Assembly (NCBI GenBank): GCA_902596745.1
Contig: CACJUZ010000007.1
Coordinates: 1 to 37,344, forward strand
Direction: 5' to 3'
Origin: an uncultured Pelagibacteraceae bacterium
GTDB lineage: Bacteria; Pseudomonadota; Alphaproteobacteria; Pelagibacterales; Pelagibacteraceae
DNA: 37,344 nucleotides
Under the pieces are notes generated by a model. It was given only the letters and a program-made list of their open reading frames with translations. It had not been told where the DNA came from and made no database searches. Below, one piece after another: positions 23,496 through 24,242 of this stretch. Numbering within the stretch: the first letter of the stretch is position 1; each line of letters opens with the position of its first letter. Both the position numbers and the translations under genes were made by a program.

Positions 23496-24123
23496 GACTG
23501 ATAAAAAAAATATCATTTTAGCTTTTGGAAATAAAGAATTTAATGATTCTTTAACTGAAGTTAAAGAATATCTACGTTTTAATTTAGAAACTACAGATAA
23601 TTTAAAAAATAGTAAATCTATAGACAGTTACGAGGGTTTTATAATTCATGAAGATGCGCTTAAAGAGAATAAATATAAGGACATAATTAAAAATCAAAAT
23701 TTGAATAAGTTAATGCTCCTTAAGTCAAAAAAAATTAAAGGATTTGATAATATTGAAAAACTTAATTTACCTACATCTGTTGGCCAAATTAATAAAGTAG
23801 TTTTTAATAATATTATAAAAAAAGAGTTTAAAATTAATTCTTCTTTAAAAATAAATAATTATAAATTAGATAAAAATCTTAGAAGATTGATAAAAGATGA
23901 ATTATATTTAGAATTAACTGAAAAAGAAATTGAACTTGTAGAGTTACTTAGAAAAAATTCTTTTACAAAGAAAAAAGAAATACTTTCAACCATATGGAAG
24001 TATTCAAAAGAAGCAGACACCCATACTGTTGAAACTCATATTTACAGATTAAGAAAAAAAATTAATGAGATCTTCAAAGATAAATCATTTATAAAAAGTG
24101 AAAAAAAAGGATACACAATTTGA
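23494..24123 (+). CDS. OmpR/PhoB-type DNA-binding protein with degenerate receiver
   Basis: 209 residues. The C-terminal 75 form a winged helix: L-T-E-K-E-I-E-L-V-E-L-L, then W-K-Y-S-K-E-A-D-T-H-T-V-E-T-H-I-Y-R-L-R-K-K, ending E-K-K-G-Y-T-I, the typical recognition helix and wing. The N-terminal 110 residues have receiver-like order (N-I-I-L-A-F, then Y-E-G-F-I-I-H, L-M-L-L-K-S, L-N-L-P-T-S-V-G-Q-I). They lack the phospho-acceptor Asp and the KP lysine. It is therefore probably phosphorylation-independent. No kinase gene is near. The stop overlaps the arfA-like start in TTGA. Confidence 0.83.
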   Translation: MTDKKNIILAFGNKEFNDSLTEVKEYLRFNLETTDNLKNSKSIDSYEGFIIHEDALKENKYKDIIKNQNLNKLMLLKSKKIKGFDNIEKLNLPTSVGQINKVVFNNIIKKEFKINSSLKINNYKLDKNLRRLIKDELYLELTEKEIELVELLRKNSFTKKKEILSTIWKYSKEADTHTVETHIYRLRKKINEIFKDKSFIKSEKKGYTI

Positions 24124-24242
24124 AAAGTAGAAATAAATACGCAAAAGATTTAATGACACCCAAGTACAGATCGAGAATAGTCAAACCAAAAAAAGGCAAA
24201 GGTAGTTTTAAAAGAAAAAAAAAGATCAAGAATTTAGAATAA
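24120..24242 (+). CDS. arfA: ArfA-like alternative ribosome-rescue factor
   Basis: 40 codons. The segment P-K-Y-R-S-R-I-V-K followed by P-K-K-G-K-G-S-F-K-R-K aligns without gaps to E. coli ArfA ([20 protein letters not shown]). ArfA enters the empty mRNA channel of stalled ribosomes with its basic tail and recruits RF2. Here Pro14 and Tyr16 correspond to Pro23 and Phe25, and KKGKGS is identical. The chain ends ten residues after that motif, close to the length of the cleaved active form of E. coli ArfA, so no hydrophobic tail has to be removed. The start is TTG inside the preceding stop (TTGA); an internal ATG at 24153 would lose the N-terminal helix. Confidence 0.78.
   Translation: MKSRNKYAKDLMTPKYRSRIVKPKKGKGSFKRKKKIKNLE

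Follow-up and report, generated by a model that had tools for sequence, protein, structure and literature searches.

The window, the whole 37,344-nt stretch of DNA that was analysed, comes from a SAR11 genome of 1.02 Mb in 29 contigs with an estimated completeness of 87%. It carries a short arfA-like gene between a regulator gene and a PfkB-family kinase gene (Table 1). The translation product is LKSRNKYAKDLMTPKYRSRIVKPKKGKGSFKRKKKIKNLE, followed by the stop codon, and 11 bases separate this stop from that of the kinase gene. Nowhere else in this genome did PF03889 match at E ≤ 0.001. The Pfam search listed no receiver-domain match for the regulator, and the Rfam search of the window gave no match. 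An internal ATG at 24153 was rejected as the arfA start, since it would lose the invariant residues N5 and L11 as well as the conserved NTGA start. On the other side of the regulator, a YkuD-like ORF (23004–23516, minus strand) runs divergently, and the two frames have 23 bases in common at their starts (23494–23516); the true YkuD-like start may lie further inside its listed ORF.

Table 1. Features at the arfA locus of the window, with two related ORFs from other SAR11 genomes
Feature	Position	Strand	Description
Upstream regulator	23494–24123	+	209 aa, OmpR-type DNA-binding domain (PF00486)
Shine-Dalgarno-like AAGGA	24107–24111	+	8 nt 5' of TTG, within Lys-Gly codons of the regulator; putative, by eye
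TTGA overlap of arfA start and regulator TGA stop	24120–24123	+	NTGA kept in own genus
arfA-like gene	24120–24242	+	40 aa, TTG start, TAA stop; PF03889
PfkB-family kinase gene	24254–25180	-	convergent to arfA
Second-family ORF	L309–L311, L298–L302, L184, L185		43–47 aa; module NP[IV]A--LRT-K[FY], tail NKKK-KKR-K
Conserved ORF KKKNPMAKLLSSPMLRNKIVKNKKKIYNRKKFK	L303–L308, frames near 1027–1281		six SAR11 genomes without arfA

The TTG start within TTGA, proposed in the initial annotation, was borne out by the relatives. At all 33 loci of the window's own genus the start position read NTGA (TTGA in 16, ATGA in 8, GTGA in 6 and CTGA in 3), with variation confined to the first base, the TGA being needed as the regulator stop. 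CTG at this conserved position (L009, L011 and L036) is unusual and is possibly a natural CTG start within the overlap. The overlap was less regular in other genera, where the exact start position read ATGA at 11, TTGA at one and GTGA at one of 24 loci. By eye, 21 of the 33 own-genus loci had a GGA, AGG or GAG between -18 and -5, in a putative Shine-Dalgarno role. Translation of arfA may be coupled to that of the regulator through the NTGA overlap.

Similarity to ArfA and purifying selection

The initial annotation had claimed a gap-free sequence pattern shared with E. coli ArfA and, from it, homology. The pattern was present: a phmmer search of the PDB matched six sequences, all of them ArfA (best E 0.003), and paired the segment LMTPKYRSRIVKPKKGKGSFKRKKK without gaps with 25 residues of the E. 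coli ArfA chain, query residues 11–37 corresponding to residues 20–46 of the 72-aa chain 5h5u. The homology was also supported, as the window protein scored 33 bits against PF03889 (curated cut-off 25.5; E 4e-8), and a SAR11 profile (A1; 27 of 57 loci, hand-picked for spread) matched a gammaproteobacterial profile (A3; 12 of 17 arfA loci) with E 2.4e-11 and a score of 52.5, the maximum of 100 column shuffles being 20.1. For all 27 rows of A1, PF03889 was the sole Pfam family matched (E ≤ 0.01). The PF03889 score, the shuffle scores and the purifying selection described below rule out a chance Lys-rich ORF. A search of NCBIfam with the window protein gave no ArfA match; this was not taken as counter-evidence, since a gammaproteobacterial ArfA had no NCBIfam ArfA match either.

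Residues N5, L11, K15, KKGKGS and R32 were invariant in the 27-row alignment, and the KKGKGS[FY] tail, which in ArfA is the mRNA channel part, was found at all 57 loci (KKGKGSF in the window protein). Because the loci were picked by PF03889, this motif conservation is partly by construction; the dN/dS values and the start overlap are independent of that choice. The position of E. coli N14 held Asn at 54 of 54 SAR11 loci and that of F25 held Tyr at 50 and Phe at 4, while Asn and Phe were invariant in the 12 gammaproteobacterial rows. Passages of PMC5378476 describe a hydrophobic patch of Leu19, Leu24 and Phe25 through which ArfA contacts RF2, the leucines touching Trp319. In the window protein only the aromatic residue of this patch is kept (F25 to Y16), with D10 and K15 in place of Leu19 and Leu24. 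Ala18, at which a substitution by Thr makes E. coli ArfA inactive, is K9 here. The RF2 contact therefore cannot be identical in detail. A gammaproteobacterial member of PF03889 (L093) likewise has both leucines replaced, by Gln and Arg.

The 57 loci with the peptide represent 57 distinct 160-nt stretches, and 54 of them entered the dN/dS and hairpin sets, the three with CTG at the start being excluded. Within the own genus the median dN/dS was 0.097 (276 usable pairs of 435), with none of the 276 pairs at 1 or above. Over all loci the median was 0.158 (1016 of 1431 pairs), with one pair at 1 or above. The other two forward frames over the same stretch contained a stop in 44 of 54 and in 54 of 54 loci.

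Like ArfA (YhdL) of Gamma- and Betaproteobacteria, the SAR11 protein is matched once per genome, scores above the PF03889 cut-off and has an aromatic residue where E. coli has F25; the two align without gaps from E. coli N14 as far as KKGKGSY-RK. The SAR11 protein differs in beginning about nine residues later, in the replacement of L19 and L24, and in length, with 35–42 aa set against the 72 aa encoded in E. coli according to an excerpt of PMC8012679. The SAR11 gene differs further in having no hairpin, an ordinary stop codon and the overlap with the regulator gene, and its bearers belong to an order without ArfB above the cut-off. The C-terminus was said to fall about where E. coli ArfA is trimmed. 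It does lie near that site, but a few residues short: mature E. coli ArfA has 52–55 aa in the account excerpted from PMC6299226, and the window protein ends at about E. coli residue 49 and its 35-aa relatives at about residue 44, the 35-codon form being found in 30 of 54 SAR11 relatives. We class the window peptide within the ArfA protein family but apart from the E. coli type with its tmRNA switch.

Profile A1 matched 124 of 197 sampled genomes of the order at E ≤ 1e-3. Strong matches (E ≤ 4e-12) were found in 119 of the 144 sampled genomes of the window's family and in none of the 53 from the second family of the order. As 25 of the 144 lacked a strong match (23 with no match, two with a weak one), arfA appears dispensable or replaceable. 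With PF03889 itself, the six-frame search matched 119 of 197 order genomes at E ≤ 1e-3, 64 above the cut-off and 55 weaker; weak matches inside 366-aa frames of two second-family genomes (G040, G043) were set aside. A draw of 61 relatives gave a match in 32 of 37 own-genus genomes, counting the source genome. A class-wide draw gave A1 matches in 15 of 385 genomes, three of them from the window's family; 11 of the other 12 lay in 45–168-codon frames with KKGKGS-like or KKxYxRK-like tails, and the remaining one (L071) inside a 588-codon frame. PF03889 was found in 18 of 200 genomes of a phylum-wide draw, namely the window's genome and 17 from the same phylum. When named genomes were scanned for the family pattern (at least 598 matches), the best 80 of at least 408 relatives were all Pelagibacter, Pelagibacteraceae or Pelagibacterales, and the tmRNA of the source genome is of the alpha type, in agreement with the alphaproteobacterial origin assumed at the outset.

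ArfA had also been called unusual for this class, and the literature concurs. A survey of 15,259 genomes, as far as passages of PMC11633108 report it, found arfA in 0 and ArfB in 2,022 of 2,376 Alphaproteobacteria, and outside the Gamma- and some Betaproteobacteria records ArfA only for 10 Bacillus subtilis-group species; the review PMC8012679, in the portion available, gives some of the beta- and gammaproteobacteria as its only bearers. No description of a SAR11 host arfA was found in the full-text literature searched, a scope outside which most subscription journals fall.

SAR11 bacteria are among the most abundant in the ocean. The distribution above suggests that ArfA takes over from ArfB in most members of a large alphaproteobacterial family, perhaps in a form so short that it is overlooked.

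Absence of the hairpin and the proposed rescue function

In E. coli, a stem-loop in arfA yields a non-stop mRNA via RNase III or termination, as stated in an excerpt of PMC8012679. We folded 130 bases from the KGKGS codons, a stretch that extends beyond the short SAR11 ORFs into the neighbouring gene. A hairpin with z < -2 was detected at 11 of 13 gammaproteobacterial arfA loci (mean z -4.33), the control comprising 13 of the 17 loci because L096, L098, L099 and L100 had no script motif near the centre. Just one of the 54 SAR11 loci reached this value (mean -0.05), and the window locus had a z of +1.9. With the hairpin missing and the stop codon ordinary, the peptide is likely made from ordinary mRNA, in line with the suggestion of the initial annotation that the tmRNA/RNase III switch is absent. 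The SAR11 form thus has no counterpart of the hairpin to which E. coli ArfA owes its role as a strict backup, and it may be made constitutively.

Alphaproteobacteria, in the words of the initial annotation, are usually described as relying on tmRNA and ArfB; for the SAR11 genomes this expectation was half right. Alpha-type tmRNA scored above the gathering score in 176 of 197 genomes (E 1e-63 in the window's genome), and SmpB was present in the source genome, the one searched for it. For ArfB we used NF006718 (PRK09256.1), which we take to be the ArfB model: none of the 197 order genomes reached its cut-off, a cut-off that was passed in just 2 of 14 known genomes used as control. Matches below the cut-off occurred in 194 of 197 genomes; those listed had 32–35 bits over profile positions of about 8–43, lay nearly all within frames of about 220–370 aa, and were taken as RF1/RF2 and not as ArfB. 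One or two such matches per genome were the rule, the source genome having a second; G076 and G190 had three each and may carry a third RF-like gene. The window protein itself, at 40 aa and without GGQ, is not ArfB (YaeJ, with its GGQ hydrolase domain). The RF2 gene of the source genome (G000:C1; L063:591–1637) retains the residues named as ArfA contacts in passages of PMC5378476 (E. coli V198, F217 and W319 correspond to V181, F200 and W302), a retention that is permissive only and does not discriminate, because these residues are conserved in RF2s generally.

We consider it highly probable that this SAR11 gene encodes a minimal RF2-recruiting ArfA that is produced independently of a tmRNA switch like that of E. 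coli. Its N-terminal half (N5 to V21) corresponds to the part of E. coli ArfA in the A site that holds RF2, and its basic KKGKGSF-RK tail to the segment that occupies the empty mRNA channel. The peptide would bind ribosomes that have stalled on reaching the 3' end of a broken mRNA, and would let RF2 release the nascent peptide. Its translation would proceed via coupling to the preceding regulator through the 4-base NTGA overlap and end at a normal stop codon, with no hairpin, so the peptide should be made during active trans-translation. Proteobacteria studied so far require tmRNA or an Arf protein, according to passages of PMC11633108. Because none of the 197 genomes had ArfB above the cut-off, ArfA would probably serve most of the family as the RF-dependent backup for tmRNA. 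The SAR11 form opens to test how little of ArfA suffices, and whether ArfA is constitutive alongside tmRNA or not.

A factor resembling ArfT of Francisella, recruiting RF1 or both RF1 and RF2 and alike to ArfA only in the basic tail, would share several of these properties. Excerpts of PMC6299226 describe ArfT as a protein of likewise 40 aa with a basic, KGKGS-like tail, made from ordinary mRNA without a terminator or RNase III site, and the window peptide has the same size, no hairpin, and residues unlike those of E. coli at the RF2-contact leucines. However, the ArfT tail is KKGGSTNKK, its position 25 is not hydrophobic, and it acts with RF1 or RF2 (PMC6299226, same excerpts), whereas the window peptide shows neither of the first two features and has the full KKGKGSF and a Tyr (Y16) at the F25 position. 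The match to ArfA also spans N14 to the tail and passes PF03889, ArfT being compared by description alone. We therefore regard an ArfT-like factor as unlikely.

Related peptides with other tails

Some SAR11 genomes encode short peptides in which a similar N-terminal module is joined to another tail. Peptides of the MKRNPIAKALRTPKFKKKVIKDKKKYNRKKVKKYF type occur in two genomes (G065, G090). In the second family of the order they are MTKVKPNKKSNPVAKELRTSKFKKRVIPNKKKIIEKKRIKLKF-like (Table 1), and the ORF of these, by eye, lies 3' of a short-chain-dehydrogenase-like gene at L309–L311, L184 and L185. A profile of five such peptides (A4) matched 82 of 152 genomes, including the five it was built from, with 40 in the second family and 42 in the first. 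At 34 of the 42 first-family genomes the match was the arfA locus itself (E 4e-11 to 1e-3). The others were G065, G090 and six arfA-less genomes (G062, G080, G120, G169, G171, G182) with the match off the arfA slot, adjoining one gene common to all six. These six peptides are M-KKRKKLKKKNPMAKLLSSPMLRNKIVKNKKKIYNRKKFKLENE or nearly so, with a pooled pN/pS of 0.094; for ten peptides of the second-family type the value was 0.42. None of the genomes listed had a second A4 match.

A further profile (A2) combined five of the 12 class matches outside the family, G065 and G090, and four of five PF23876 loci (L082 excluded). Because seven of its 11 rows were found via A1, its score against A1 is partly by construction. 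This DUF7230-like profile scored 28.4 against gammaproteobacterial ArfA, with shuffles at 12.2 or below. The four PF23876-only rows gave 19.0 (E 2e-3, probability 12.7%) against gammaproteobacterial ArfA and E 3.8e-6 in the comparison with the SAR11 peptides. By these scores, the other-tail peptides are less closely tied to ArfA than the window peptide is. DUF7230 (PF23876) shares the N-terminal half RNP-A-K-LR---[YF] but has a KKxYxRK-like tail in place of KKGKGS, and PF23876 matched neither the window protein (E ≤ 1) nor its genome. The name DUF7230 was not found in the full-text literature searched.

These peptides raise a possibility that we put forward tentatively, at slightly under even chances: ArfA may be one branch of a wider family of RF-recruiting rescue peptides of 35–50 residues. 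Its members would consist of a module N-P-x-A-K-x-L-R-T-x-[KR]-[FY] and an exchangeable basic tail, of the form KKGKGS-[FY]-x-RK, KKxYxRK (as in DUF7230) or NKKK-x-KKR-x-K (second SAR11 family). They would replace each other at different sites of SAR11 chromosomes, where ArfB was not found, would be free of the tmRNA switch and would be passed around among marine viruses. Five genomes (G021, G063, G066, G067, G072) have neither arfA nor an A4 match, which counts against this wider family.

Gene order and viral relatives

The regulator and pfkB lay within 1.5 kb of arfA at all 33 own-genus loci and at 20 of 24 others; at L033 and L037 neither was found near it. The regulator was matched in 19 of 21 genomes searched, a set chosen mostly for arfA absence. 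In nine genomes (G062, G063, G066, G067, G072, G080, G120, G132, G169) the arfA slot was empty and the regulator was directly followed by the convergent end of pfkB, the latter identified by eye. Because the regulator remains in these genomes, it is a neighbour and not a necessary partner.

Relatives of the window peptide are also encoded by viruses. The pattern PKKGKGS[FY] occurred in at least 600 IMG/VR stretches, at least 232 of them encoding relatives, of which 80 were kept, with the pattern present by construction. Eight proteins from three viral loci were read: phage genes adjoin arfA at L211 (terminase) and L258 (endolysin, exonuclease, GroES), and at L285 the neighbours were of a nucleotidyltransferase family only. 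ArfA in phages is already known, as gp30 of pelagiphage HTVC027P (MN698241 15768–15944; MKKEKWDGRSRPATDKYKEEWNRIFNPVAKEVRTPKYKSQIIKPKKGRGSFKRDNGIT) is called ArfA by PF03889 in a passage of PMC12753301, and gene 10 of Citromicrobium phage RXM is annotated as ArfA. The tail (KKGRGS or LKGRGS) and the mid-region of both resemble those of the SAR11 peptide. Both differ in being viral, and gp30 also in having an N-terminal extension and in adjoining the terminase small subunit gene. A tblastn search of phages gave one weak match with the window protein and none with a composed 35-aa consensus, possibly since the low-complexity filter masked the tail; longer viral queries did find phage matches.

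A gene of viral origin, kept in the hosts for reasons of phage infection rather than general rescue, would account for the many viral contigs that encode close relatives. It would also fit the tree (115 rows), which joins SAR11 and viral sequences against the gammaproteobacterial ones (100/98) with host and viral sequences not cleanly apart, although this tree, with only 36 columns, cannot tell which way the gene was transferred. The fixed site beside the same two neighbours at 33 of 33 own-genus loci and the strong purifying selection argue against it, and we think this origin quite improbable. A small basic RNA- or DNA-binding peptide with another function, for example as an accessory of the regulator, and with a convergent KKGKGS is very improbable: the gene overlap, the Lys-rich make-up and the related DUF7230 without assigned function would suit it, but column-shuffled profiles of equal make-up score lower, the regulator persists in the nine genomes without arfA, arfA stands at L033 and L037 with neither neighbour found, and no regulator was noticed in the three viral loci, read without a dedicated search.

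With the window peptide read as an RF2-recruiting ArfA, the reason for ArfA in marine phages becomes open to test. Caulobacter phage Cr30 (L314; KF301602 11151–11261) has an open frame with KPRKGKGSF, RNPIAKALRSSHLQPKIVKPRKGKGSFTRKGK, where no ArfA is annotated. Gp18 of HTVC115P (L062:2501–2761; MN698247 5463–5723), a protein of 86 aa, has the ArfA N-terminal module MKLRNPIAKELRTPKYKSKVV, but its tail is acidic and lacks KGKGS. It is a possible RF2 decoy or ArfA antagonist, and such decoys may occur in some phages.
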